Part shown: positions 6,163 through 20,555 of the stretch, piece by piece
Layout of the letters: each line of letters starts with the position of its first letter
Numbering within the stretch: position 1 is the stretch's first letter
The notes under the pieces: model-generated
Seen by the model: only the letters and a program-made list of their open reading frames with translations
What the model was told of the DNA's origin: nothing
Database searches by the model: none
Source: Streptomyces roseoverticillatus
GTDB taxonomy: Bacteria; Actinomycetota; Actinomycetes; Streptomycetales; Streptomycetaceae
DNA length: 64,000 nt
Reading direction: 5' to 3'
NCBI RefSeq assembly: GCF_000719265.1
Contig: NZ_JOFL01000020.1
Span: 1-64,000, forward strand
Made by a program: the position numbers and the translations under genes

Positions 6163-6275
6163 GCGCGCCCCCCTCCGCCACCCCCGGACGTAGAGTGATG
6201 ATCATATAACTCAAAGGGATGGCGAGGGGTCGGGACGGCCCGTCTCCCCCGTCTTTCTTCCTCAACCCTCACCCT

Positions 6276-7364
6276 TTACTTGACGTTGACAGCCGCCCAC
6301 GCGGCCGCGACCGCCGCGTACTGGCCGCTGCCGGCCCCGTACAGGTCCCCCGCCGCGCGCAGGGTCGCTGCGCGCGCCGCCGCGTAGTTCGTGCGCGCGG
6401 TCATGTGGACCGTCAGGGCGCGGTACCAGATCTTCTCGGCGGCGGACAGGCCGATGCCCTTGACGGGCGTGCCGTCGTAGGTGGGGCTGTCGTAGCGGAC
6501 GCCGTTGATGTCCTTGGCGCCGCTGCCCTCGGCGAGCAGGTAGAAGAAGTGGTTTGCGGGGCCGCTGGAGTAGTGGACGTCGACGTTGCCGATGCCCGGG
6601 TACCAGTAGTCCTTGGAGGCGCCGTCCTTGGAGGGCTTGTCCATCCAGCCGCGGGCGGTGGTGCCGTTGATGTCGGTCCGCTCGCCGGTGAGATAGTCGC
6701 CGGGGTCGAGCGGGTTGCGGGCGGAGAACTCGGCGGCCGCGGCGAAGATCGTGCTGGTCGCCTCGTTGAGGCCGCCCGCCTCGCCGCTGTACTCCAGGCC
6801 CGCGGTGGCCGAGGTGACGCCGTGGGTCATCTCGTGCGCGCCGGTCTCGATGGTGACGACCGGCCGCCCGCCGCCCGCTCCGTCGCCGTACGTCATGCAG
6901 CCGCTGACGGCGTCCCAGAAGGCGTTGGCGTAGTGGTTGCCGTAGTGGACGCGGCTGCAGGACCCGCGGCCGTCGCCGTAGATGCCCTTGCGGCCGTGGG
7001 TGTTCAGGTAGTAGTCCCGGACGACGGCGGCGATGTAGTGGGCCGCGACGCCGTCGGTCTGTCTGCCGCCGTCGCACCAGTCGTTGTCGGCGTCGGTGAA
7101 GAGGCTGCCGTTGCCGGTGGTCGAGCCGTTCGCGTCGTACGTCCGGTGATGGCCGCGCTCGGCGTCGTCGAGCTCGTACCGGCCGGTGGTGGTGTTGTGC
7201 GTGGTGTCGAGGGTGACCTCGCCGACGGTGCTGCCGCCGCAGCCCTTGCCGGTGGCGGGCTCGCCGGCGGGGCGGGCGTGCGCGGGGCCGGCCTGCAGCC
7301 CGGCGAGGACGAGGACGGCGGCGGACACGGCGAGGGCGAACGGCTTCCGGGGTGTGCGAGGCAT
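6276..7364 (-). CDS. Secreted M4-family metallopeptidase lacking the propeptide
   Basis: 362 residues from ATG 7362-7364, preceded by GAAGAAGGTG; the longer frame to 7448 lacks a better site. Residues 1-30 are a signal peptide ending in AHA. The catalytic domain has the zinc site HEMTH (177-181), the third ligand Glu201 in GGLNEATS and the thermolysin-type catalytic His264 in DVHYSSGPANHFFY. The N-terminal FTP/PepSY propeptide of about 180 residues, present in the paralogue at 18942, is missing, so the enzyme either folds without it or relies on another chaperone. Four cysteines (42, 97, 136, 156) could form disulfides. It stands alone between the helicase and the response regulator. Confidence 0.9.
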   Translation of the reverse strand: MPRTPRKPFALAVSAAVLVLAGLQAGPAHARPAGEPATGKGCGGSTVGEVTLDTTHNTTTGRYELDDAERGHHRTYDANGSTTGNGSLFTDADNDWCDGGRQTDGVAAHYIAAVVRDYYLNTHGRKGIYGDGRGSCSRVHYGNHYANAFWDAVSGCMTYGDGAGGGRPVVTIETGAHEMTHGVTSATAGLEYSGEAGGLNEATSTIFAAAAEFSARNPLDPGDYLTGERTDINGTTARGWMDKPSKDGASKDYWYPGIGNVDVHYSSGPANHFFYLLAEGSGAKDINGVRYDSPTYDGTPVKGIGLSAAEKIWYRALTVHMTARTNYAAARAATLRAAGDLYGAGSGQYAAVAAAWAAVNVK

Positions 7365-7480
7365 GGCGGCGGCACCTTCTTCGGCTGCGGCGGCGGGCAG
7401 TCCTTGCCGTACGGACGCGGAACCGTGGGGCAGGAACGAGGGTGCCACCGGAATGGCCCGCTTGTCAGGATCCCGACAAC

Positions 7481-7520
7481 CTGCCCGTCAGGTCCCGTCA
7501 GGTCCCGTCAGGTCCCGTCC
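7481..7520. repeat. Four-copy 10-bp tandem repeat over a stop codon
   Basis: The unit GGTCCCGTCA occurs twice exactly and twice with one or two changes (CTGCCCGTCA at 7481 and GGTCCCGTCC at 7511). The last units overlap the final codons and stop of the response regulator gene (stop 7508-7510). Because 10 is not a multiple of 3, a change in copy number would shift the regulator's C-terminus. Confidence 0.8.
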
Positions 7521-8188
7521 GGCGCGTGCCGCAGGTACGCCAGCACGGCGCTCACCCGCCGGTGCAGTTGCGGTATCTCGGCGAGCCCGAGCTTGGCGAA
7601 GGTGGAGTTGACGTGCTTCTCGATGGTCGACTCGGACAGCCGCAGCGACTCCGCGATCGCGCGGTTGGTCTTGCCCTCCGCCATGTGCCGCAGGACGTCG
7701 AGCTCCCTGCGGGTGAGCCGGGACAGCGGGGCGTCGGCGGCGCGGGCGTGGCTGCCCATCAGCACCTCCACGATGCGCGGGTCGACGACGGAGCGGCCGG
7801 CGGCCACCTCGCGCAGGGCGCGCAGCAGTTCGTCGACCTCGCCGATGCGCTCCTTGAGGAGGTAGGCGAGGCCGTCGGTGCCGCGCCGGAAGAGGTCGAA
7901 GGCGTAGTTCTCGTTGGCGTGCTGCGAGAGCACGACGACGCCGATGCCGGGGTGGCCGGCGCGGATGGCGTGGGCGGCCGCGATGCCCTCGGTGTGGTGG
8001 CCGGGCGGCATGCGGATGTCGGCGATGACGACGTCGGGGCGGAGCCGGCCGACGGCGTCGAGGAGCTCGCCGGCCGTCCCGACCGCCGCGACGACGTCGG
8101 CCTGGCCGGTGTCCTCCAGCAGCCGGCGGGTGCCCTCGCGGACCAGGTAGTGGTCCTCGGCGATGACGACGCGCAGGGGGTCAGGCAC
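7508..8188 (-). CDS. NarL/FixJ-family response regulator
   Basis: 226 residues. The receiver domain (1-120) has the acidic pair Glu11-Asp12, the phosphoacceptor Asp57 in VVIADIRMP and a switch lysine in the LLKERIGE region. The LuxR helix-turn-helix is at about 155-215 (LSRLTRRELDVLRHMAEGKT, then NRAIAESLRLSESTIEKHV). It overlaps the upstream histidine kinase gene by 8 bp (ATG at 8186-8188, kinase stop at 8181), so the pair is translationally coupled and should work as one two-component system. The target genes are not evident; the nearest are the M4 protease and, divergently, the lanthipeptide locus. Confidence 0.93.
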   Translation of the reverse strand: MPDPLRVVIAEDHYLVREGTRRLLEDTGQADVVAAVGTAGELLDAVGRLRPDVVIADIRMPPGHHTEGIAAAHAIRAGHPGIGVVVLSQHANENYAFDLFRRGTDGLAYLLKERIGEVDELLRALREVAAGRSVVDPRIVEVLMGSHARAADAPLSRLTRRELDVLRHMAEGKTNRAIAESLRLSESTIEKHVNSTFAKLGLAEIPQLHRRVSAVLAYLRHAPDGT

Positions 8189-10262
8189 GGGTCTCCTCCC
8201 TCACTCGCTCCAGGAGCCGGGCGCGGATGACGGTGCCGGTGCCGGGGCCGCTGACGATGGCGAGCTCGCCGCCCACCGCCTCGATGCGGTCGCGCATGCC
8301 GGTGAGGCCGGAGCCGCGGGTGGTCTCGGTGGGGAATCCGGCGCCGTCGTCGCGGACCTCCACCAGGAGCCGGCCGCCGCCGCGGGCCATGCGGATGGTG
8401 ACGTGCGTGGCCGCGGCGTGCTTGAGCACGTTGGTGAGGGCCTCGGAGACCAGGTAGAAGGCGGACTCTTCGACGTCGAGGGCGAACCGCACCCCGCCGA
8501 GGGTCTCCTCGCTGTGGACGGTGACGGGGATGGGCATGCGGCGGGCGCAGGAGGTCACGGCGGCCACGAGGCCCTGGTCGGTGAGGATCGGCGGGTGGAT
8601 GCCGTGGGCGAGCTCGCGCAGCTCGTCGATGACGCGGTAGGCGTCGTCCTGCATCTCGGTCAGGGCGGCGTCGATGTCGCCGCCGCGGCGCAGGCAGCTG
8701 CGGGCGAGGGCCAGTTTGGCGACGAGGGCGACGAGCTCCTGCTGGATGCCGTCGTGGAGGCGGCGTTCGATGCGGCGGCGCTCGGTGTCCTGGGCGTGGA
8801 CGATGCGGGCGCGGGAGGCGTCGAGCTCGGCCGCCTGGCGCTGGACCTCCTCGACGCGGGCGCAGAGCTCGGCGGCGAGACGGACATTGTGCACGGCGAG
8901 GGCGGCCGAGCGGGCCAGGGTCTCGCCGATGTCGTGGTCCTCGGGGGTGCAGCGGCCCTCGGCCTTCGGGCCGTACTCGATGATGCCCAGCACGTCCTCG
9001 CCGTAGAGGAGGGGGAATTCCCCGAGGGGCGGGCCGGGCCGCCCGCCGGCGCCGGGGGGCCGTGCCCCGGCCTCCCCCAGGGAGACGGGCAGGCCGTCGC
9101 CGCCGAGCCGGACGCGTACCCACTGCAGGTTCAGGCCCTCGTGCAGGCCGGTCGCGAGCCGGGGCGCGAGCCGGTCGAGGTCGTAGGCGTGCTCCAGGGT
9201 GGTGCCGAACTGGACGAGGAGCTCGAACCGGCTGAGGCGCTTGCCGAAGACGCGGCGCTCGGCGAGGGCGTTGAGCCGGGCGCGCAGTGGCTGGAAGAGG
9301 GCCGTGGCGACGACGGCGACGAGCAGGGACAGGCCCACCGGGAGGTACTGCCCGGCGGTGAGCCCGAGCGTCAGCGCCATCCCGAGGTACCAGCTGTTGA
9401 TGATGAGCCACAGGGAGCCGTAGACGGCCGAGCGGCGGATGACGAGGTCGACGCCGAGGAGCCGGTGACGGAAGGCGGCGTAGACGATGGCCAGGGAGAT
9501 CACCACGTAGGGCAGGGCACCCAGGACGGCGCCGGCGAAGTAGAGCACGCCCTGCTCGCCCTGCCAGGTGCGGAAGAGCCGGGAGGCGGCCCGGGCCAGG
9601 AGGAGGAGCGCGCCGGGGACGGCGAAGGGCAGGAGGGCGGCGATGTCGCGGCGGCCGGCCGCGGGGGCGCGCAGGCAGCGCAGCACGAGGAGGACGGCGC
9701 CGAGACCGGGCAGCCACGCCTCGGGGTAGTAGAAGACAACGTAGTGGACGGTGAGCTGGGTCATCCCGGTCAGCGGCAGCAGGGCGGGCAGGGCCAGCAG
9801 GCCCCAGAGGGCGCCGAGGACGCGGCGCTCCCACGGGAAGGCGTACCTGCCGTCGGGCAGCAGGGCGAGCAGCCGGACGACCAGGATGCCGACCGTCAGG
9901 TCGCAGATCTGGCTGAGGACCTGGAGGCCGTACTCCGCGGGCAGCTGCAGGGCGTGGGGCGTGGGGCGGAGGTTCCAGTCGAAGGCCCGGATCAGCAAAG
10001 TGGTGCTGTAGCGGATCGCAATGGACACCGAGAGCCAGGTGCCGATCAGCAGAAGTCGTTTTGCGACCGGACTTGTCGGCGCGTGCCACCATGTGAACAA
10101 ACCCGCGAAATAGCACGGGAGAACGGAACCCAGGATCCACGGCAGCGTATACCTGTTCTGCAACTGGGTGGTGCCGATGAGTGTCGCCCAGAGCATGCAC
10201 ACTCCGCCGCACACCGCGACGATGTGCATCCCCCGGTTTCTGGCCGCTGCCATAGGGGACAT
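8181..10262 (-). CDS. Membrane sensor histidine kinase (HisKA_3 / NarX-type)
   Basis: About 693 residues from ATG 10260-10262 (a second ATG three codons in, 10251-10253, is equally possible; neither has a clear Shine-Dalgarno). The N-terminal half holds about nine or ten hydrophobic segments to residue 300, followed by a GAF-like region around 330-450. The dimerisation segment has the phosphoacceptor His503 in RRIERRLHDGIQQELV, and an HATPase_c domain closes the protein (SEALTNVLKHA, DDGAGF, GSGLTGMRDR). It is coupled to the NarL-type regulator downstream. The ligand is unknown. It is divergent from the lanthipeptide radical SAM gene with about 200 bp between, so it could sense conditions for that locus, but nothing in the sequence proves this. 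Confidence 0.9.
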   Translation of the reverse strand: MSPMAAARNRGMHIVAVCGGVCMLWATLIGTTQLQNRYTLPWILGSVLPCYFAGLFTWWHAPTSPVAKRLLLIGTWLSVSIAIRYSTTLLIRAFDWNLRPTPHALQLPAEYGLQVLSQICDLTVGILVVRLLALLPDGRYAFPWERRVLGALWGLLALPALLPLTGMTQLTVHYVVFYYPEAWLPGLGAVLLVLRCLRAPAAGRRDIAALLPFAVPGALLLLARAASRLFRTWQGEQGVLYFAGAVLGALPYVVISLAIVYAAFRHRLLGVDLVIRRSAVYGSLWLIINSWYLGMALTLGLTAGQYLPVGLSLLVAVVATALFQPLRARLNALAERRVFGKRLSRFELLVQFGTTLEHAYDLDRLAPRLATGLHEGLNLQWVRVRLGGDGLPVSLGEAGARPPGAGGRPGPPLGEFPLLYGEDVLGIIEYGPKAEGRCTPEDHDIGETLARSAALAVHNVRLAAELCARVEEVQRQAAELDASRARIVHAQDTERRRIERRLHDGIQQELVALVAKLALARSCLRRGGDIDAALTEMQDDAYRVIDELRELAHGIHPPILTDQGLVAAVTSCARRMPIPVTVHSEETLGGVRFALDVEESAFYLVSEALTNVLKHAAATHVTIRMARGGGRLLVEVRDDGAGFPTETTRGSGLTGMRDRIEAVGGELAIVSGPGTGTVIRARLLERVREETRA

Positions 10263-10469
10263 TGTCCCGGGCCGCCGCCGGAGACGTCCAGAGAGGAAAT
10301 CCACCGTCGTGCATGGCGGAGAACCTCCATGCGGATTGGGGGGCGGCCGGGTGCCCCGGAAAGCCGCCGGGCAGCAGACTCGTGACATCGCATCAGGGAA
10401 TTCGAACGGGCCCGTCCGGGAATCGGCGGGTTCCTCCGCGGGATCTCCGAGAACGGGACGGTGGCTGCC

Positions 10470-11543
10470 ATGAGTCCTTCCTCCGGTCCAGAAGTGATCG
10501 TCTGGGACACCACCTACGCCTGTCCCCTGCGCTGCTCGCACTGCTACTCGGAGTCGGGGCGGCGCCCGTCCCGGCAGCTCGGCCCGCCGGACCTGCTCCG
10601 CGTGGCCGACGCCCTGATCTCCCTGGGACCGCGGGTCGTCGCCCTGTCCGGCGGCGAACCGCTCGTCGTCCGGGGACTCTTCGAGGTCGCGGCGCGGCTC
10701 CGTGACGCCGGCGTGAGGACGTCCGTCAACACCAGCGGCTGGGTGATGAACCGGCCCCTCGCCGAACGGCTCGCGGGCCACTTCGACGAGGTGATCGTCA
10801 GCCTCGACGGCGCGACGCCCGAGGTGCACGACCGCATCCGGGGCCGGGCCGGCTCCTTCCGCCGGGTGATGGCCGCGCTGGCCCTGCTGGACGAGGTGGC
10901 CGGGGAGCGCGCGGCCGCCGGCCGGGGGCGGCTGCGCTTCGGCATCGACTGCGTGGTGATCCGCAGTAATTTCGGGCAGCTGGAGGACTTCGCCGCCGGC
11001 ATCGCGCACCGCTTTCCTCATCTGAACACCCTCGCCTTCAATTCCGCCGTTCCCGAAGGGCTCGCCAGCCGCCCGGAATTCTGCCGCCGCGAACTCCTCG
11101 GCGACGCCCAGGTGGAGCAACTGACCAGCGACGGGCTGCGGGCCCGGCTGCGCGAGCTCGCTCCCCCGTCCGTCTCCGTCTTCACCACGGACAACTTCAA
11201 CCTCGTCATGCACCCCGAGCGGGTGGCGCGCCGCGCCGACACCCTGGTGATGCAGGTGGAGCCGGACGGCAGGGTGCGCGGGATCCCCGTCTACGAGGGA
11301 ACGGTCGGCAGCCTGCTGGAGGAGCCCGCGGCGCTGCTGTGGGAGCGCACCCTGGAACGGCTCCGCGACCCGTTCGTCGTGGAGACCCTGTCCTCGGTGC
11401 GCTCCATGCGGACCTGGGCGGAGGCGGTCCGGCGCATGGACCTCCGCTTCGCCTCCCCGGAAGACCTGCTGAGGATCGGCCGGCGCTCGGTCCGTACGAA
11501 TCCCCCGGAATTCGCCGAAGCGACCGATTCCGTGGCCGGCTGA
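10470..11543 (+). CDS. Radical SAM protein of the lanthipeptide locus
   Basis: 357 residues from ATG 10470, with GGGACGG seven bases upstream; a GTG three codons earlier (10461) is the alternative. The 4Fe-4S/SAM site is Cys18-x3-Cys22-x2-Cys25 in YACPLRCSHC, followed by the SGGEPL SAM-binding motif and the VNTSGW and VIVSLDGATPEVHD strands. Only isolated cysteines occur later, so there is no SPASM or twitch cluster. It stands 105 bp upstream of LanKC1 on the same strand, so it is probably a tailoring enzyme for the two precursor peptides. Reaction type (crosslink, epimerisation or other) cannot be told from sequence. Radical SAM enzymes are not part of standard class III lanthipeptide pathways. 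Confidence 0.87.
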   Translation: MSPSSGPEVIVWDTTYACPLRCSHCYSESGRRPSRQLGPPDLLRVADALISLGPRVVALSGGEPLVVRGLFEVAARLRDAGVRTSVNTSGWVMNRPLAERLAGHFDEVIVSLDGATPEVHDRIRGRAGSFRRVMAALALLDEVAGERAAAGRGRLRFGIDCVVIRSNFGQLEDFAAGIAHRFPHLNTLAFNSAVPEGLASRPEFCRRELLGDAQVEQLTSDGLRARLRELAPPSVSVFTTDNFNLVMHPERVARRADTLVMQVEPDGRVRGIPVYEGTVGSLLEEPAALLWERTLERLRDPFVVETLSSVRSMRTWAEAVRRMDLRFASPEDLLRIGRRSVRTNPPEFAEATDSVAG

Positions 11544-11584
11544 ATTCCGGGCCGCATTCCGCAGACCCCGGAGAGACCTAAGAC

Positions 11585-11632
11585 TTCCGAAGCCCCGACA
11601 TCCCGAAGTCCCGAAGCCTCGAAGTCCCGAAA
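11585..11632 (+). repeat. Six-copy 8-bp imperfect tandem repeat in the LanKC1 leader
   Basis: Six consecutive octamers close to TCCCGAAG fill the interval just before the GGAGG of LanKC1 (units start at 11585, 11593, 11601, 11609, 11617 and 11625). Two central units are identical. They lie in the untranslated leader between the radical SAM stop and the LanKC1 start. Confidence 0.75.
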
Positions 11633-11648
11633 GGAGGGGCCCGTCTTG

Positions 11649-14270
11649 ATGACGCTCAAGGACTACGACCGTTTCTACCGGGCCGACCCGGACTTCTTCG
11701 AATTCCCCGAGCGGCTCGCCGACACGGCCGGAAGGCTTTCCGCGGCCCTCGGCGAACCGCCGGCGGGCTGGGACCGTACGGACCGCGGCTGGTGGGTCGC
11801 GCTGCGGCCGCGAACGGTGCGCGTGCCCGCGCAGGGCTGGCGGATCCACGTCTCCGTGGCACTCCCGTACGTGGCACGCGCCGCGGAGATCGTCCGGGGC
11901 TTCTGCGTCCCGCGGGGCGTCCCCTTCGACGTCGTCCGCAGCCTCGACGCGGCCCGTGCGCTGGCCGGCGAGCACGCCGACCGGCTCACGTGCGGCGACC
12001 TGATGACGCTCCACCCCGCCGGCGAGACGCAGCTCGCGCAGACGCTCAACGAACTCGGCGCGCTGCTGGACGGGCTCCCGGGCCCGTACGTCCCGGGCGG
12101 TCTGCGCCACCGGGCCGGGCCGCTGTACGTGCGGTACGGCTCCTCCGGCGCGCTGCGGTGTCCCGAGCGGCCCGCCGCGTACGGGGCCGGGGACGAGCCG
12201 CGCCTGGTGCCCGCGCTGGAGCGCCCCGACGGCACGCTCGTCCCCGAGAACCGCCGCCCGGTCTTCCGCTGCCCGGACTGGGTCGCCCTGCCGGAGTTCC
12301 TGCGCCCGGACCTGGAGGCGCTGCACGCCGTTCCGGACGAGCCGCTCCCCTGCCGCGTGCGGCGGGCGCTGAAGGCCACCACCGGCGGCGGCACCTACCT
12401 GGCCGAGGACCGCGCCACCGGCACCCGCGTCGTCCTGCGCGAGGCCCGCCCCCACACCGGCCTCGACCAACGCGGCGACGACGCCGTCACCCGCCTGGAC
12501 CGGGAGCGCGCGGTCCTCGGCCGGCTGGCCGGGCTGGACTGCGTGCCGCGCGTCCTCGGCCACCACGTGCGGGCCGGGCACCACTTCCTCGTCCTGGAGC
12601 ACTTCGAGGGCCGCAGCCTGGCCGAAGCCGCGGCCGCCGCCTTCCCGCTGACCTCCGAGGCGCGGGCGGCCGAGGAGGCCGCCTCGTACGCGGACCGGTC
12701 CCTGGCCGTCGTGGCCCGGATCGCCGGCGCGCTCCGCGAACTCCACGCCCGGGGCGTGCGCCTCGGCGAGCTCAACCCGGACGACGTGCTCCTGCGCCCC
12801 GACGGGCGCGTCGCCCTGACCGCTCTTGCGACGGCCACGGACCTGGAGGACGACCGGGCCCCGGCCCTGGGCGAGGAGGGCTTCACGGCACCGCCCGGCC
12901 TCCGGGGCGCGGACGCCACCGCGTACCTGCTCGACGCCCTGCGCCTGTGGCTGCTCCTGCCCGTCCCGCACCGCAGCCCGGCGACCCTGCGCGTCCTCAC
13001 CGCGACCGCCGAGGAGCTGTACCCGCTGCCCGCGGGCTTCGGCGGCAGGCGGCTCGCGGGCCTGCTGCCCAAGCCCGCGGCGTACGGGGCGGCCCGGGAG
13101 GAGGACCACGCCGCGATGCTCGCCGCGGAGGACCTCGACTGGCCCGCCGTCCGGGACTCCCTGGTCGCCGGCATCCACGCCATGGCCACCCCGGAGCGCG
13201 AGGACCGGCTCTTCCCCGCCACGCCGGCCGGCCCGGACTCCCTCGGCGGCCACGCGTTCGGCCACGGCGCGGCCGGGGTCCTCTACGCCCTGCACCGCGT
13301 GGGGGCCGGCGTGCCGGACGCCTACGTCGCGTGGCTGGTGGCAGCCGCGGCACGCGACACCGATGCGCGGCCGGGCCTGTACGACGGGCTGCACGGCGTC
13401 GCGCTGGTCCTCGACCTGCTCGGCCGCCGGGACGAGGCCCTCGCCGTCCTCGCCCGCTGCCGCCCCGCCGAGGCCCGCGTGATCCGCCCGGACCTCGCCG
13501 GCGGCAAGGCGGGCATCGCCCTGAACCTGCTGCGGTTCGCGCGGATCACCGGGGACGCCGCGCTCCACGAGGACGCGCTGCGCACCGCCGGCGAACTCGC
13601 CGCGCTCGTCACGACCGGGCCGCTCACCGCCCGGCCCGGCGTGCCCCCGCCCTGCGGGCTGCTGCACGGGGCCGCCGGCATCGCCCTGCTCTTCCTGCAC
13701 CTGTACGAGGAGACGGGCGAGGCCCGCTGGCTCGATCTCGCCGACCGCGCGGTGGGGCACGACATCGACCGGTGCACCGTCGGGAAGGACGGCGCCCTCA
13801 CCCTGTTCGACGGCACGCACCACCTGCCGTACCTGCACGGCGGGAGCAGCGGGCTCGCGTTCCCGCTGCAAGGCCTGCTGCGGCACCGGCCCGGGGGCGC
13901 CGGGGCGGCGACGCTCGCCGCCGTCCGGGACACGTGCCGGGCACTGTACGTGCGCAACGCCGGGCTGCTGCGGGGGCGGGCGGGTGCGATCGCCACGCTG
14001 GCCGCACTGGACGGTCACGGGGGCCGGCCCGGTGCGGCCGTCCGCACCCAGGTCCGCCGCCTGGCCTGGTACGCGCACTCCTACCGCGGGCACCTCGCGT
14101 TCCCGGGCTTCCGGATGCTGCGCCTGTCGGCGGACCTGGCCACCGGGTCGGCGGGCGTGCTCCTGGCCCTGGGCTCCGCGTTCGAGGGGGACGCCGCGGC
14201 GGGGCGGGGTCCCGTCCTGCCGTACCTCGACCCGCGGCCGTTGCCCCGACGAGCCGAAGAGCGGAGGTGA
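11649..14270 (+). CDS. LanKC-like class III lanthipeptide synthetase with degenerate lyase and kinase sites (LanKC1)
   Basis: 873 residues, ATG 11649 after AGGAGGGGC. The fold order matches class III synthetases: lyase-like (1-200), kinase-like (235-490) and cyclase-like (520-860, with GLLHGAAGIALLFLHLYE and RLSADLATGSAGVLLAL). Aligned by eye to LanKC2, key residues are changed. In the lyase, Lys62 becomes Arg65, Lys91 becomes Asp94 and Lys114 becomes Asp117, while the His67 equivalent stays. In the kinase, the catalytic Asp of GDLQPGN becomes Glu374 in GELNPDD, its Asn becomes Asp379, and the metal-binding DFE becomes Ala-Leu-Ala (392-394). It is probably unable to phosphorylate or eliminate. 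Its stop lies in the GGAGGTGA site of the first precursor gene, so expression is coupled. Possible roles are leader binding, cyclisation or a scaffold for LanKC2. Confidence 0.88.
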   Translation: MTLKDYDRFYRADPDFFEFPERLADTAGRLSAALGEPPAGWDRTDRGWWVALRPRTVRVPAQGWRIHVSVALPYVARAAEIVRGFCVPRGVPFDVVRSLDAARALAGEHADRLTCGDLMTLHPAGETQLAQTLNELGALLDGLPGPYVPGGLRHRAGPLYVRYGSSGALRCPERPAAYGAGDEPRLVPALERPDGTLVPENRRPVFRCPDWVALPEFLRPDLEALHAVPDEPLPCRVRRALKATTGGGTYLAEDRATGTRVVLREARPHTGLDQRGDDAVTRLDRERAVLGRLAGLDCVPRVLGHHVRAGHHFLVLEHFEGRSLAEAAAAAFPLTSEARAAEEAASYADRSLAVVARIAGALRELHARGVRLGELNPDDVLLRPDGRVALTALATATDLEDDRAPALGEEGFTAPPGLRGADATAYLLDALRLWLLLPVPHRSPATLRVLTATAEELYPLPAGFGGRRLAGLLPKPAAYGAAREEDHAAMLAAEDLDWPAVRDSLVAGIHAMATPEREDRLFPATPAGPDSLGGHAFGHGAAGVLYALHRVGAGVPDAYVAWLVAAAARDTDARPGLYDGLHGVALVLDLLGRRDEALAVLARCRPAEARVIRPDLAGGKAGIALNLLRFARITGDAALHEDALRTAGELAALVTTGPLTARPGVPPPCGLLHGAAGIALLFLHLYEETGEARWLDLADRAVGHDIDRCTVGKDGALTLFDGTHHLPYLHGGSSGLAFPLQGLLRHRPGGAGAATLAAVRDTCRALYVRNAGLLRGRAGAIATLAALDGHGGRPGAAVRTQVRRLAWYAHSYRGHLAFPGFRMLRLSADLATGSAGVLLALGSAFEGDAAAGRGPVLPYLDPRPLPRRAEERR

Positions 14271-14276
14271 TTTCAG

Positions 14277-14372
14277 ATGGCGGAGATCCTGGACCTGCAG
14301 GAGCTGGAGGAGGAGAGCCCTGCCCTGTGGCCCTGCGCCAACAGCTCGCACAGCACGCTCGGCATGGCCTGA
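14277..14372 (+). CDS. Class III-type lanthipeptide precursor 1 (31 residues)
   Basis: Too short for normal gene finding. It follows the LanKC1 stop by 6 bp with GGAGGTGA as ribosome site. The peptide starts MAEILDLQELEEE, matching the ILxLQxLE leader motif recognised by LanKC enzymes. The likely core is SPALWPCANSSHSTLGMA (residues 14-31), with one cysteine (20) and Ser/Thr at 14, 23, 24, 26 and 27. The standard labionin pattern Ser-x2-Ser-x(2-5)-Cys is absent; instead Cys20-x2-Ser23-x2-Ser26 gives the reverse order. A Ser14-Cys20 lanthionine is the other simple option. No protease site or processing gene is evident. Confidence 0.85.
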   Translation: MAEILDLQELEEESPALWPCANSSHSTLGMA

Positions 14373-14429
14373 CGGGCCGTGCGGACGCCCGGCCGTGGCC
14401 GGAAACCCCGCCGGGAGGAGGTGAAGAAC

Positions 14430-14525
14430 ATGTCGGAGATCCTGGAGCTGCAGGAGCTGGAGGAGGAGACCCCTTCCGTGTGGCCCTGCGCCAACAGCTA
14501 CGAGAGCGCCCGCGGCGCCGCCTGA
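14430..14525 (+). CDS. Class III-type lanthipeptide precursor 2 (31 residues)
   Basis: A paralogue of precursor 1 of identical length, starting 57 bp after its stop, with GGGAGGAGGTGA upstream. The leader is MSEILELQELEEE and the core TPSVWPCANSYESARGAA. Conserved between the two cores are Ser/Thr14, Pro15, Trp18-Pro19-Cys20-Ala21-Asn22-Ser23, Ser26 and Gly29. The tail positions vary, as expected for products that share one scaffold. Only one cysteine is present, so at most one thioether or labionin-type ring can form per peptide unless two peptides join. Both cores could be substrates of the radical SAM enzyme, perhaps at the invariant Trp or Cys. Confidence 0.87.
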   Translation: MSEILELQELEEETPSVWPCANSYESARGAA

Positions 14526-14558
14526 CGCACCGCTGACAGCAGCGCTCGCCCGTAAGGA

Positions 14559-14589
14559 CTGCCGGCCGCGGGCTGCCCGCGGCCGGCAG
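14559..14589 (+). terminator. Perfect hairpin between the precursor genes and LanKC2
   Basis: Two 15-base arms beginning CTGCCGGCCGCGGGC pair perfectly around a single T; in practice 13 pairs with a 5-base loop. No T-run follows. It lies 34 bp after the second precursor stop and 58 bp before LanKC2. Such a site would cap and stabilise the short precursor transcript while letting some polymerase through, a common way to make more precursor than enzyme. Confidence 0.7.
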
Positions 14590-14647
14590 GCGGGAGAAGG
14601 CACCGGCACACCACACGAACCAGGGCCCACCGGGAGGAGAAGGTCGC

Positions 14648-17203
14648 ATGCTCGCTCAGGGTCATCTCGCCGCGGATCCCTGCTTCGCGGACACGCTCGA
14701 CCGCATCGACGACGCCGGGGAGCGCTTCGCGCGTGCGGACGGGCCGCCGCCCCCGGGGTGGCTGCGGTCCGAGCGCGGCGGCTGGGTCGGCTTCCACCGC
14801 CCGGACGCCGTCCTGCCGCGGCAGGGCTGGAAGATCCACGCCTCCGCGACGCCCGCCCGCGCGGAGCACGTGATCGACACCGTCTGGGACCACTGCACCG
14901 AACGCGGCATCTGCTTCAAGTTCCTGCGCAGCCCCGCCGTCCACAAGCAGGTCGACAGCAAGCAGGGGCCGCGCTCCGCCGGCGGGAAGCTGGTCACCGT
15001 CTATCCCGCGGACGAGCGGGAGCTGGAGCGGACCCTGACGGATCTGTCGGCGCTGCTGCGCGGCGTGGAGGGCCCGTACATCCTGAGCGACCTGCGCTGG
15101 GACGACGGCCCGCTGTACGTGCGGCACGGCGGCTTCAGCCTGGCGTACTGCTTCTCGCCCGAGGGCGAGTACGTGCCGGCGGTCGAGGGGCCCGGCGGCG
15201 GGCTCGTGCCCGATGTGCGGGGCACCTCCTTCCGGGTGCCGCCGTGGGTGGAGGTGCCCGCCTTCATCGCCGCCCGCATCCGGGCGGCCAAGGCCGGCAC
15301 GCCCGGCGGCTTCCCCTACCGGGTGGAGAAGGCCCTGCACTTCTCCAACGGCGGCGGGGTGTACCGCGCCACGGACAAGAGCTCCGGGCGGCGCGTCGTG
15401 CTCCGCGAGGCCCGGCCGCACGCCGGCCTGGACGACAGCGGCGCGGACGCCGTCGCCCGCCTGGACCGCGAGCACGCGGTGCTGCAGCGGCTGGCCGGCC
15501 TCGGCTGCGTGCCCCGGGTGTACGCGCGGACGCGCCACTGGGAGCACCACTTCCTCGTCGAGGAGCTGGTCGAGGGCGAGCCCCTGCAGGAGGCGGTCGG
15601 GCGGCGCCACCCGCTCTTCCGGCACGGGCCGGGCGAGGACGAGGTCGCCGCCTACGCGCGCTGGGCCTGCGAGATCCTCGGGCGGATCGAGAAGGCCGTG
15701 GCCGAACTGCACCTGCGGGGCGTCGTCTTCGGGGACCTGCAGCCGGGCAACGTCATCGTGCGCCCCGACGGCAGCGTCTGCCTGGTCGACTTCGAGACGG
15801 CGTTCCCCGAGGGCGACGGGGAGTCCCGGCCCGCCCTGGGGACGCCGGGCTTCACCGCCGCGTGGGCCCGGTCGGGTACCGCGGTCGACACGTACGCCCT
15901 CGCCGCCGTGGCCCTCGCGCTGTTCTGCCCGCTGACGCCGCTCCTGCGCTTCGACCGGGAGAAGCACGTCCAGCTGGCCGGGTGGGCGGAGCGGCGGTTC
16001 CCCCTCCCGCCCGGCTACGCCGCGCGCCTGCGCGCCGGACTCGCGCCGCCCGCGGGCGGATCCGCCGCGGACGACCCGCCGGACGGCTCCCGCTGGCCGG
16101 AGGAGTGCACGGCCGACGGACGGGCCGCGCTGGACTCCCTCTGCGAGGGGATCCTGCTCAGCGCGACGCCGGAGCGGCCGGACCGGCTGTTCCCGGGGGA
16201 CGTGCGGCAATTCGACGGGCAGGGCGCGTCCCTGGCGTTCGGCGCGGCCGGCGTGCTGCACGCCCTGTACGTCACCGGGCGCGCGGGCTACGAGGAGTTC
16301 GGCGACCACGTCGAGTGGCTGGTGCGGGCCGCCGGGCGGACGCCCTGGCCGCGCCCCGGGCTGTACGACGGGCTCGCCGGCATCGCGTACGTCCTGGACG
16401 AACTGGGCCGGCCCGAAGAGGCGCGCGAGGCGCTCGCCCGCCTCGACGGCATCGACCTGCGGGGCTGCGGCGCCGGGCTGTTCGGCGGGCTGGCCGGAAT
16501 CGGCCTGGCCCGGCTGCACTTCGGGGACGCAGCCACAGCCGAGCGGCTCGCCGGCCGGCTGGCGGACGCGCTCGCCGGTACGGAGCGGCTCGCCGGCAAG
16601 GCGGACGCCGTCGGGCTCACGCACGGCTGGTCGGGGCCCGCGCTGCTCTTCACGCGGCTGTACGCGGCGACGGGCGAGGCCTCCTGGCTGCGGCACGCGG
16701 AGACCGCGCTGGCCAGGGACCTCGGCCGGTGCGGAGCGCCCGGGGAGGGGCGGCTCCACGTCAAGGACGGGCAGCGGTGGCTGTCGACGCTCGACCGCGG
16801 CAGCGCCGGGATCGCCCTCGCCCTCGACGCGTACGTGCGGCACCGCGAGGACGCCCACTTCGCGCTGCTGCGCGACCGGATGCGCGACAGCCTCGGCACC
16901 GAACTCCTGCTCTCCCCCGGACTCCTGGACGGACAGGCGGGGCTGCTGTACGGCCTCGCCCACCTGGCCGGCCCAGGTCCCGCACCGGCTGCACACCTGC
17001 GGGGCCTGGGCCTCCACTGCGTACGGTTCAAGGGCCGGCGGGCCTTCGCGACGGACGGGCTGCTGCGGCTCTCCATGGACCTCGCGACCGGCGGTGCGGG
17101 GGTGCTGCTGGCGGTGCACACCGCGCTCCGCGGCGGCCCGGCCGGGATGCCGCACGCGCCGCTGCCCTTCCTGTCACCGTCCTCGCCGCCGGCTTCGCCG
17201 TGA
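14648..17203 (+). CDS. Class III lanthipeptide synthetase LanKC (LanKC2)
   Basis: 851 residues from ATG 14648, preceded by GGAGGAGAAGG. The enzyme should bind the ILxLQ leaders, phosphorylate core Ser/Thr, eliminate phosphate and cyclise. The lyase domain (1-200) keeps Lys62, His64, Lys91 and Lys114 (GWKIHASATP, ICFKFLRS, GGKLVTVYP). The kinase domain (225-480) keeps Asp363 and Asn368 in GVVFGDLQPGNVIV and Asp381 in LVDFE; the beta-3 position is Arg253 in VVLREARPHAG where I would expect Lys. The C-terminal cyclase (about 500-830) has GLTHGWSGPALLF and LSMDLATGGAGVLLAV but no zinc Cys/Cys/His set, which argues for class III rather than class IV. It overlaps the MFS gene by GTGA. Confidence 0.93.
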   Translation: MLAQGHLAADPCFADTLDRIDDAGERFARADGPPPPGWLRSERGGWVGFHRPDAVLPRQGWKIHASATPARAEHVIDTVWDHCTERGICFKFLRSPAVHKQVDSKQGPRSAGGKLVTVYPADERELERTLTDLSALLRGVEGPYILSDLRWDDGPLYVRHGGFSLAYCFSPEGEYVPAVEGPGGGLVPDVRGTSFRVPPWVEVPAFIAARIRAAKAGTPGGFPYRVEKALHFSNGGGVYRATDKSSGRRVVLREARPHAGLDDSGADAVARLDREHAVLQRLAGLGCVPRVYARTRHWEHHFLVEELVEGEPLQEAVGRRHPLFRHGPGEDEVAAYARWACEILGRIEKAVAELHLRGVVFGDLQPGNVIVRPDGSVCLVDFETAFPEGDGESRPALGTPGFTAAWARSGTAVDTYALAAVALALFCPLTPLLRFDREKHVQLAGWAERRFPLPPGYAARLRAGLAPPAGGSAADDPPDGSRWPEECTADGRAALDSLCEGILLSATPERPDRLFPGDVRQFDGQGASLAFGAAGVLHALYVTGRAGYEEFGDHVEWLVRAAGRTPWPRPGLYDGLAGIAYVLDELGRPEEAREALARLDGIDLRGCGAGLFGGLAGIGLARLHFGDAATAERLAGRLADALAGTERLAGKADAVGLTHGWSGPALLFTRLYAATGEASWLRHAETALARDLGRCGAPGEGRLHVKDGQRWLSTLDRGSAGIALALDAYVRHREDAHFALLRDRMRDSLGTELLLSPGLLDGQAGLLYGLAHLAGPGPAPAAHLRGLGLHCVRFKGRRAFATDGLLRLSMDLATGGAGVLLAVHTALRGGPAGMPHAPLPFLSPSSPPASP

Positions 17204-18495
17204 GCGCTGCCGTGAAGCACGGGTCCCGCAGGCGCGCGGCCCCGCCCGGCAGCCTCCGCCGGAACCGGGACTTCCAGCTCCTGTGCGCCGGCCAGGGCCT
17301 CTCCCTGCTGGGCTCGGGCGCCTCGGCCGTCGCGCTCCCCCTGCTCGTCCTGCAGATCACGCACTCGCCGCTGCGCGTAGGGCTGGTGGAGGCGGTCTGG
17401 ACGGGGGCGCTGGCGCTCGCGTGCCTTCCGGCGGGCCCGGTCGCCGACCGCTTCGACCGCCGCAGGGTCCTGCTGGTGTGCGAGACCGGCAGGGCGGCGG
17501 CGAGCGCGGCCCTGGCCGCCGCGGTCCTCGCCGGCTTCGCGGCGCTGCCGGTGCTCCTGGCCGCGGGCGTCGTGCTGGGCTTCCTCGCGGCGCCGTTCAA
17601 CGCGGCGGTGCTGCCGGCGGTCCGGGAGGTCGTGCCGGAGAGCAGGCTGGCCACCGCGCTGGCCGTCAACCAGGTGCGGGGCCAGCTCGCGTTCCTGCTC
17701 GGGCCGGTCGTCGGGGGCGTGCTGTTCGAGGCGTCGCCGAGCTGGCCGTTCTGGCTGGACAGCGCGTCCTACGCGGTCTCCGCCGCGTGCGTCCGAGCGC
17801 TCCGTACCCGGACGCGCACGCACCTGCCGGACGGGGCGGGAGGCGAGGGCTGGTGGCGGTCGTTCACCACGGGGATCGCCTTCCTGTGGGGCGAGCGCGT
17901 GCTGCGCAGGCTGACGTTGATCGCCTCGGCGCAGAACTTCGTCTTCGACGGGGTGTACCTGGCGATCGTGGTGACCGCCGCGCGCGAGGGGGCGTCGGGC
18001 GGCTCGGTCGGGATGCTCACCGCGATGTCGGCGGTGGGGGCGATGGCCGGGGTGGTCCTCGCGCCGCGCGCGGGCAGGCTGCTCTCCCCGTCCGGGGTGC
18101 TGCTCGTGACCGGCGTGCTGTGCGCGCTGCTCGTCGGTGCGATGGCGCTGACGGCGAGCGCGCTGGTGCTGGCCGTCCTGCTGGCGGGGTGCGCGCTGGC
18201 CGTGGCCGTCGCCGGTTCCGTGCTGACGGTCGCGCGGCTGCTGCGCACGCCGGCCCGGCTGCAGGGCAGGACGAACAGCGCGATCGGGCTGCTGTTCATG
18301 GCCACTCCCCCGCTGGGCTCGTCGCTGACCGGGCTGTTCCTGGACGAACTGCCGGGCTGGATCCTCTTCTTGTGCTTCGGGTCGGCCCTCGCGCTGCTGG
18401 CCGCCGCGTCGCCCCGGGAGGCCGCGTTCGCCTCCGCCGACGCTCTGGACCGTTCGAACGGTGTAGGACACACTCGGGCCCATGCGATGGACTGA
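17200..18495 (+). CDS. MFS transporter, probable lanthipeptide exporter
   Basis: 431 residues from GTG 17200, which overlaps the LanKC2 stop by 4 bp. About twelve hydrophobic segments are visible. The MFS loop 2-3 motif appears as GPVADRFDRRRVLL, and the N-terminus (RNRDFQLLCAGQGLSLLGSG) is typical of MFS 3/enterobactin exporter-like transporters. Class III loci of the SapB type use ABC transporters, so an MFS carrier is a less usual exporter. Tight coupling to LanKC2 suggests that it exports the modified peptide or gives self-protection. Its 3' end overlaps the iscX start by 14 bp. Confidence 0.88.
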   Translation: MSAAVKHGSRRRAAPPGSLRRNRDFQLLCAGQGLSLLGSGASAVALPLLVLQITHSPLRVGLVEAVWTGALALACLPAGPVADRFDRRRVLLVCETGRAAASAALAAAVLAGFAALPVLLAAGVVLGFLAAPFNAAVLPAVREVVPESRLATALAVNQVRGQLAFLLGPVVGGVLFEASPSWPFWLDSASYAVSAACVRALRTRTRTHLPDGAGGEGWWRSFTTGIAFLWGERVLRRLTLIASAQNFVFDGVYLAIVVTAAREGASGGSVGMLTAMSAVGAMAGVVLAPRAGRLLSPSGVLLVTGVLCALLVGAMALTASALVLAVLLAGCALAVAVAGSVLTVARLLRTPARLQGRTNSAIGLLFMATPPLGSSLTGLFLDELPGWILFLCFGSALALLAAASPREAAFASADALDRSNGVGHTRAHAMD

Positions 18496-18941: not shown

Positions 18942-20555
18942 TTGAGACGCTTCACCACCCCCCGCAGCCACACCGTACGCACCACCGCCCTCCTCGCCTC
19001 CGCCGCCCTGTGCGCCGTCGCCGTGCAGACCGGCGTGGCCGGTGCCCAGGCCGAGCGCGGCCCGGACGCCACGGCGGTCCAGCTCAGCCCCGACCAGCGG
19101 GCCTCCGAGATACGCGCCGCTCAGGACCAGGCGGGCGCCACTGCCGGGCGCATCGGCCTCGGCGCCAAGGAGAAGCTGGTCGTCCGTGACGTGATCAAGG
19201 ACGCGGACGGCACCGTCCACACCCGCTACGAACGCACCTACGACGGCCTCCCGGTCCTCGGCGGCGACCTCGTCGTCCACCGGGACCAGGCCGGCCGCAC
19301 CACCGTCACCAAGGCCACCGAGGCGACCGTCGCCGTCGCCTCGACCGACGCGCGGCAGCCCGCGGCGGCCGCGGCGAAGACCGCGCTGTCGGCCGCCTCC
19401 TCGGCGCACACCGCGCAGCCCTCCGCCGGCACCCCGCGCAAGGTCGTCTGGGCCGCCTCCGGCACACCCGTCCTCGCCTACGAGACCGTGGTCGAGGGCT
19501 TCCAGCCCGACGGCACGCCGAGCGAGCTGCACGTCGTCACCGACGCCGCCACCGGCGCCGAGCTCTACCGCTACGAGGCGATCGAGACGGGCACCGGCAC
19601 CAGCCAGTACAGCGGCACCGTGCCGCTCACCACGACCAAGAGCGGCAGCAGCTACCAGCTCAACGACGGCGCGCGCGGCGGCCACAAGACGTACGACCTC
19701 AACCAGGGCACGTCCGGCACGGGCACGCTCTTCACCAACGCGACCGACAAGTGGGGCGGCGGCCGCCAGACCGCCGGCGTCGACGCGCACTACGGCGCGG
19801 CCGTCACCTGGGACTTCTACAAGAACTTCCTCGGCCGCAACGGCATCCGCAACGACGGCAAGGGCGCCTACTCCCGCGCCCACTACGGCAACAGCTACGT
19901 CAACGCGTTCTGGAACGACTCGTGCTTCTGCATGACCTACGGCGACGGGCAGGGCAACCGCAAGCCGCTCACGGCCATCGACGTCGCGGGCCACGAGATG
20001 AGCCACGGCGTCACCGCCGCGACCGCGAAGCTGGTCTACAGCGGCGAGTCGGGCGGCCTCAACGAGGCCACGTCGGACATCTTCGGCACCGCGGTGGAGT
20101 TCTACGCCAATAACTCCTCCGACGTCGGCGACTACCTCATCGGCGAGAAGATCGACATCTTCGGCACCGGCAAGCCGCTGCGCTACATGGACAAGCCGTC
20201 GAAGGACGGCAACTCCGCCGACAACTGGTCCAGCGGCGTGGGCGGCAAGGACGTCCACTACTCCTCGGGCGTCGCCAACCACTTCTTCTACCTGCTGTCC
20301 GAGGGCAGCGGCAAGAAGACGATCAACGGCGTGCAGTACGACAGCCCGACGGCCGACGGCTCCAAGGTCACCGGAATCGGCCGGGACAAGGCCGTCAAGA
20401 TCTGGTACAAGGCCCTCTCCACGTACATGACGTCCAACACCAACTACAAGGCCGCGCGCACCGCGACGCTGTCGGCCGCGGGCGCCCTGTACGGCACCAC
20501 GAGCACCGAGTACAAGGCGGTCGGAGCGGCCTGGAGCGCCGTGAACGTCAAGTAG
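18942..20555 (+). CDS. Secreted M4-family metallopeptidase (thermolysin-like), full length
   Basis: 537 residues from TTG 18942, with AGGAG six bases upstream; no ATG or GTG fits better. The order is signal peptide (about 1-36, ending AGAQA), an FTP/PepSY propeptide (about 45-215, with VRDVIKDADGTVHTRYERTY and YDGLPVLGGDLVVH), then the M4 catalytic domain. The zinc site is HEMSH 351-355 with Glu375 (GGLNEATS) and the catalytic His439 (KDVHYSSGVANHFFY). The propeptide should act as an intramolecular chaperone and be cleaved off outside the cell. It is monocistronic, with a strong hairpin after the stop. Its catalytic domain is clearly related to the short M4 gene at 6276. Confidence 0.95.
   Translation: MRRFTTPRSHTVRTTALLASAALCAVAVQTGVAGAQAERGPDATAVQLSPDQRASEIRAAQDQAGATAGRIGLGAKEKLVVRDVIKDADGTVHTRYERTYDGLPVLGGDLVVHRDQAGRTTVTKATEATVAVASTDARQPAAAAAKTALSAASSAHTAQPSAGTPRKVVWAASGTPVLAYETVVEGFQPDGTPSELHVVTDAATGAELYRYEAIETGTGTSQYSGTVPLTTTKSGSSYQLNDGARGGHKTYDLNQGTSGTGTLFTNATDKWGGGRQTAGVDAHYGAAVTWDFYKNFLGRNGIRNDGKGAYSRAHYGNSYVNAFWNDSCFCMTYGDGQGNRKPLTAIDVAGHEMSHGVTAATAKLVYSGESGGLNEATSDIFGTAVEFYANNSSDVGDYLIGEKIDIFGTGKPLRYMDKPSKDGNSADNWSSGVGGKDVHYSSGVANHFFYLLSEGSGKKTINGVQYDSPTADGSKVTGIGRDKAVKIWYKALSTYMTSNTNYKAARTATLSAAGALYGTTSTEYKAVGAAWSAVNVK

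Follow-up and report, generated by a model that had tools for sequence, protein, structure and literature searches.

In the accounts of class III enzymes that we drew on, a single LanKC protein supplies three activities. According to the passages of PMC10604976 used here, most cyclase mutations in one such enzyme, ThurKC, also disturb dehydration, and the cyclase is therefore hard to study apart from dehydration in that protein. We analyzed a 64,000-nucleotide stretch of Streptomyces roseoverticillatus DNA (contig NZ_JOFL01000020.1, positions 1 to 64,000; hereafter the window) that carries two LanKC genes, LanKC1 and LanKC2, on either side of two precursor genes. LanKC1 has lost the residues of two of its three active sites and has still been preserved, and it probably now performs just ring closure or acts as the partner half of an enzyme. 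We see about an even chance that the pair forms a class III synthetase split in two: LanKC2 would dehydrate the precursors and LanKC1 would be a leader-guided cyclase or subunit. The genes form a run on the plus strand from 10461 to 18495:

10461..11543, plus strand: radical S-adenosylmethionine (radical-SAM) protein, starting at GTG 10461 or ATG 10470, with a CX3CX2C motif (PF04055, E 5.6e-22)
11649..14270, plus strand: LanKC1, a pseudo-LanKC of 873 amino acids (aa) (NF038151, 746.5 bits)
11733..12332, plus strand: LanKC1 lyase domain, residues 29-228, with R65, D94, E108, D117 and G151 (RamC_N, PF25816)
12348..13112, plus strand: LanKC1 kinase domain, residues 234-488, with E374, D379 and A392-L393-A394
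13137..14231, plus strand: LanKC1 cyclase domain, residues 497-861, with H673 and R775, which do not vary within the clade described below (PF05147)
14277..14372, plus strand: precursor A1, 31 aa, MAEILDLQELEEESPALWPCANSSHSTLGMA, with the class III leader motif LxLQ
14430..14525, plus strand: precursor A2, 31 aa, MSEILELQELEEETPSVWPCANSYESARGAA, with the class III leader motif LxLQ
14648..17203, plus strand: LanKC2, 851 aa (NF038151, 930.2 bits; Pkinase, 1.7e-9), with 8/8 catalytic columns kept
17200..18495, plus strand: major facilitator superfamily (MFS) exporter (PF07690, E 1.2e-30), whose start overlaps the LanKC2 stop codon

Both proteins are class III LanKCs, scoring above the 575-bit cut-off of NF038151, and LanKC1 also has the lyase-kinase-cyclase architecture (its domain limits were transferred from ThurKC). 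Assignment to class IV LanL was rejected, with NF038150 giving only 259.5 bits for LanKC1 and 371 bits for LanKC2 against a cut-off of 650. The Pfam Pkinase family matches LanKC2 and gives no match in LanKC1 at E 0.01. Foldseek and VIA-align retrieved the fold of LanKC1 and did not indicate its function. LanKC1 is a LanKC by descent; judged by its lost residues, it is predicted to be no longer trifunctional.

Residues were mapped by alignment onto ThurKC, for which 19 of 20 positions taken from passages of PMC10604976 fit one constant offset; the twentieth, 'Asp770', is given as Phe770 elsewhere in that paper. ThurKC Asp364 and Asn369, which those passages do not name, were placed via the GDLQPAN motif. 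The preliminary description of this locus had reported R65, D94, D117, E374, D379 and A392-L393-A394 in LanKC1 as catalytic losses. All stand at those numbers and, in the alignment with this characterized LanKC, fall on lyase and kinase residues, together with two further changes. In ThurKC numbering, the lyase changes are K65R, K94D and K117D, plus K108E and D152G, and the kinase changes are D364E, N369D and the replacement of D382-F383-E384 by A-L-A. Every one of these residues is present in LanKC2, as had also been proposed for those first reported. The same passages of PMC10604976 report that ThurKC K94A yielded unmodified peptide only, that K65A and R163A gave no turnover, and that D152A left the peptide mostly unmodified, with Lys94 and Asp152 presumed to be the acid/base of the lyase. 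However, the class V lyase CaoY is described in PMC9486802 as functional with Arg at the place matching K65, so K65R alone is little proof of inactivity, and we scored either Lys or Arg in that column as intact.

We scored eight lyase and kinase columns across the best 120 listed matches to each of LanKC1 and LanKC2. A LanKC1 clade of 39 distinct sequences, 38 from the LanKC1 list plus the window protein, has lost at least five columns in every member: five, six, seven and eight losses occur in 10, 5, 18 and 6 proteins, respectively. K94, D152 and D364 are gone from all 39. None of the 54 proteins of the LanKC2 clade has lost any column, and among 144 other LanKCs, 137 have lost none, four have lost one and three have lost three or more. 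The LanKC1 counts leave aside P0044, a 685 aa piece that is dead too, and P0020 is gapped at K65 and H67. The LanKC2 counts leave aside three part-length proteins (P0144, P0155 and P0162) and a fusion (P0182), while P0181 and P0183, which the tree places inside the LanKC2 branch, were tallied with the 144. P0072, P0108 and P0113, all outside the clade and each lacking three or more lyase or kinase columns, are perhaps independent pseudo-lyases. P0182, named from S. alboflavus, joins LanKC2-like kinase and cyclase domains to an MFS exporter and is either a fusion or a reading error.

LanKC1 might instead still be an active kinase, its Glu substituting for the catalytic Asp, and hand a phosphopeptide to LanKC2. 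Glu does stand at D364 in 33 of the 39 proteins, and P0010-P0012 still have both N369 and DFE. However, the metal-binding D382 is lost in 25 and N369 in 26 of the 39, and the window protein has neither, which makes this reading very improbable.

In a tree built from a thinned choice of 108 rows, the LanKC1 clade forms one side of a single branch with support of 100. Identity alone does not separate dead from intact proteins, since P0043, the next match by score after the clade, is intact at 50% identity. The clade belongs to a 37-row group (support 91, internal order not settled) with two intact sets, one consisting of P0043, P0045 and P0065 and the other of 12 single LanKCs, including those of the loci L047 and L049. 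LanKC2 sits on a different branch, so the pair did not arise by tandem duplication. Based on L047 and L049, the probable order of events is that a LanKC of the type that accompanies a radical-SAM enzyme was joined by a second LanKC and then ceased to dehydrate.

The pairing is a stable feature of the loci. Across 12 distinct loci (L039-L045, L133 and L134 of genome G739, L137 of G586, L141 of G476, and the window), the radical-SAM gene is always followed by the dead LanKC, then by one or two precursors whose core contains Trp-Pro-Cys (WPC), and last by the intact LanKC. The search for LanKC pairs with the same losses that the preliminary description called for returned a dead LanKC beside an intact one at all 12. 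The radical-SAM gene, overlooked in that description, is equally constant; an MFS gene is found in seven loci, and a sensor kinase with a regulator in ten. The LanKC1 of L137, 46% identical and dead, lies outside the 39. The idea of two synthetases serving a pair of precursors holds for the four loci that have two precursors and fails for the other eight, which have one. For the same reason, the two LanKCs are not one enzyme per precursor.

In a set of 392 genomes from the genus, eight carry the LanKC2 clade, at nine loci, and a dead LanKC1 is present at 9/9. Three weaker LanKC2 matches in the set of 392 (47-48%) are single LanKCs without a dead LanKC1. The dead clade was also found in 3/120 relatives and, at a strict limit, in 1/394 genomes of the class, the window's genome apart. 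For 17 of the 38 listed relatives, the contig is given the same length as the contig of a LanKC2-clade protein, a hint that LanKC1/LanKC2 pairs also occur in Actinomadura, Spirillospora and other Streptomyces. G739 has two cassette copies whose LanKC1 proteins are 69% and 51% identical to that of the window and whose precursors differ. In G083, two neighboring LanKCs (L143) are both intact, so a LanKC pair as such is not particular to dead LanKCs.

Proteins of the dead clade show a shift of conservation from the lyase and kinase to the cyclase, with some pairs of loci as exceptions. At a threshold of 95% conservation, 23/176 columns pass in the lyase, 35/244 in the kinase and 112/360 in the cyclase of LanKC1, compared with 52/168, 81/256 and 82/349 in LanKC2. 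With mostly-gap columns excluded, the ratio of cyclase to lyase-plus-kinase conservation is 2.25 for LanKC1 versus 0.78, 0.81, 0.85 and 0.86 for LanKC2 and three intact sets chosen from the tree and hit list; the difference within LanKC1 is significant (Fisher P 6.7e-9). Mean pairwise identities for lyase, kinase and cyclase are 0.57, 0.59 and 0.67 in LanKC1; 0.63, 0.65 and 0.62 in LanKC2; and 0.51, 0.50 and 0.48 in other LanKCs. This clustering of conserved columns in the cyclase rather than the kinase tells against another reading, suggested by analogy with allosteric pseudokinases. A non-catalytic LanKC1 could replace one protomer of the usual LanKC dimer and tune, scaffold or deliver substrate to LanKC2, its cyclase being kept for shape rather than chemistry. 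We hold this to be possible, though we would not expect it.

LanKC1 is under selection. Comparison of the window with S. klenkii gives ratios of nonsynonymous to synonymous substitution rates (dN/dS) of 0.37 (LanKC1) and 0.35 (LanKC2); more distant pairs give 0.55-0.71 versus 0.34-0.53, with the S. lasiicapitis pair as an exception (0.35 versus 0.37). These are rough values, dS being unsure at a GC content of 98% in third codon positions, and that uncertainty tells against resting a split synthetase on them. The faster evolution of LanKC1 in some pairs is what a decaying pseudogene would predict. However, all 39 clade members are full length (798-913 aa), the codon-position GC signature is intact, dN/dS is well under 1, and LanKC1 is present at 12/12 loci. 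Retention across the clade refutes decay, a reading that is barely credible.

Leader contacts kept in the LanKC1 clade, among ten positions known from ThurKC, include Y243 (39/39), E258, R112 and F306 (38/39 each) and Y148 (35/39). Judging from these residues, LanKC1 may still hold the leader, in a changed form. The cyclase site has a character of its own in this clade: D667 is His and D771 is Arg in 39/39, S726 is His in 35/39, and S608 is Asp in 31/39. Columns 667, 726 and 771 are variable in LanKC2.

Several observations weigh against a split between dehydration and cyclization. Compared with cyclase columns drawn at random, the five columns of the LanKC1 cyclase site show no significant excess of conservation (P 0.117; 0.758 for LanKC2), and class III cyclase residues are highly variable in intact LanKCs too. 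LanKC2 has a cyclase domain without visible damage. In the locus pairs L042-L043 and L041-L042, LanKC1 shows no cyclase bias, its three domains having similar rates (dN/dS 0.53-0.60, identity 63-65%), and LanKC1 as a whole is less constrained there than LanKC2 (0.55-0.58 versus 0.34-0.38). Kinase residues D382 and N369 are kept in 14/39 and 13/39 clade members. The leader-groove residue W302 is gone from all 39 and F236 is kept in only two; the remaining ThurKC contact positions vary in intact LanKCs as well. Finally, sharing an operon does not show that LanKC1 and LanKC2 bind each other.

The proposal that LanKC1 is kept as a partner is borne out as far as retention goes, by a clade of 39 with full branch support and an intact LanKC alongside at every locus. 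The narrower proposal of a cyclase-only or partner role draws indirect support from the conservation shift and the kept leader contacts, tempered by the loss of W302 and, mostly, of F236.

The precursors suggest what kind of ring might be made. Each of the 16 precursors that we surveyed has a single Cys, which lies within WPC downstream of the LxLQ leader, and none contains the labionin pattern S/T-x2-S/T-x3-C. Ser or Thr follows the Cys in all 16 and precedes it in 14, mostly at -6. Precursor A1 of L133 and the precursor of L043 have no Ser or Thr between the leader motif and the Cys, so that their ring would run towards the C-terminus or the Cys would be used otherwise, perhaps by the radical-SAM enzyme. 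A1 and A2 of the window fall below all NCBIfam cut-offs, and the noursin type was rejected (NF050143 15.5 and 17.4 bits against a cut-off of 40).

These features bear on the possibility that LanKC1 is a cyclase with a new reaction, employing another nucleophile, reversing the ring direction or closing on a product of the radical-SAM enzyme, while LanKC2 carries out ordinary dehydration and perhaps its own cyclization. The clade-specific His at S726 and Arg at D771, the missing labionin pattern and the two precursors without Ser or Thr before Cys are in its favor, and the parts of PMC10206099 on noursin enzymes indicate that the chemistry of class III cyclases can shift. However, ordinary rings are possible in 14 of the 16 precursors, where Ser or Thr precedes the Cys, and we consider a new reaction quite unlikely. 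A more specific version is also unlikely: a pseudo-dehydratase LanKC with this His/Arg cyclase site could close a non-labionin WPC ring together with the radical-SAM enzyme, giving a new cross-link, possibly with Cys N-terminal in the ring.

For the split synthetase, we infer the following course. LanKC2, with kinase and lyase intact, would phosphorylate Ser and Thr of the precursor and then eliminate the phosphate; this part follows from its residues. LanKC1, presumably incapable of either step, would be retained as a second subunit that grips the same leader through a remnant groove of the lyase and kinase N-lobe and performs the cyclization, either by itself or in a heterodimer with LanKC2. 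Counting in favor of this course, PneKC entries in the PDB, by their titles, contain two chains, of which chain A carries the substrate. The radical-SAM enzyme would add a further change, likely within the constant Trp-Pro-Cys. Across 42 aligned radical-SAM rows, C21, C25 and C28 are invariant and no other Cys reaches even 90% conservation, and the C-terminal end is SPASM-like without conserved Cys ligands for auxiliary clusters. Its structural model (predicted local distance difference test score 87.7) has SkfB as its best Foldseek match among solved structures (template modeling score 0.63), which did not indicate function. Relatives about 55% identical to this protein are common in actinobacteria.

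The following features lie beside the cassette:

7508..8188, minus strand: LuxR-type response regulator, paired with the sensor kinase
8181..10310, minus strand: HisKA_3 sensor kinase, a divergent neighbor whose start is not settled (frame from codon-position GC)
6276-7448, minus strand, and 18942-20555, plus strand: two thermolysin-like M4 proteases flanking the cassette

The sensor kinase is a possible regulator of the cassette. Plus-strand open reading frames at 6219-7865 and 8163-10385 were rejected as wrong frames, as they have no Pfam match and codon-position GC points to the minus strand. Among the 12 loci, the M4 proteases were matched, besides in the window, in L039 only. Proteins named from Streptomyces sp. 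XH2 and S. roseoverticillatus share 95% identity with LanKC1. The same genome has a further full LanKC on contig C2 (1127 bits). A plasmid search with LanKC1 returned 48 records, every one below 60% identity.

We found no account of a paired dead and intact LanKC in the open-access literature, a search outside which most subscription journals lie. Genome mining as set out in the relevant part of PMC7268733 requires a Pkinase match in a LanC-like protein; LanKC1 lacks one, so on its own it would not be assigned to class III. If our reading is correct, a silenced clade beside an intact LanKC opens the cyclase to study apart from dehydration and shows that LanKC subunits can specialize.

Other systems divide the work differently. 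Class I also has separate dehydratase and cyclase proteins (LanB and LanC), as would be the case here; however, our scans gave no relation between LanKC2 and LanB, and LanKC1 is without zinc ligands. In the class V pairs CaoK-CaoY and LxmK-LxmY, portions of PMC9486802 and PMC12141560 describe heterodimers in which a separate kinase and lyase dehydrate. Those are different proteins, and their split is between kinase and lyase, whereas here it would be between dehydration and cyclization. The noursin synthetases (LanKC-Hbt) are class III and their precursors have a similar leader, albeit below the family cut-off, but a single NorKC performs all steps in the account given in part of PMC10206099. 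L047 (Streptosporangium minutum) and L049 (Nonomuraea rhizosphaerae) resemble the window in a radical-SAM protein 52-54% identical, a short core that keeps the Pro-Cys pair (HPC for WPC) and a LanKC placed with LanKC1 in the 37-row group of the tree. Unlike the window, they have one intact LanKC and no second one in the stretch examined; L049 has a further gene that, by eye, resembles a cytochrome P450. Compared with ThurKC, CurKC, PneKC and SalKC, the window differs in having two LanKCs per precursor set, a radical-SAM gene, a LanKC1 without lyase and kinase residues, and a WPC core without the labionin pattern. The lyase-kinase-cyclase order, the fold and the LxLQ leader are shared with those enzymes, and LanKC2 has the catalytic residues of a class III LanKC.
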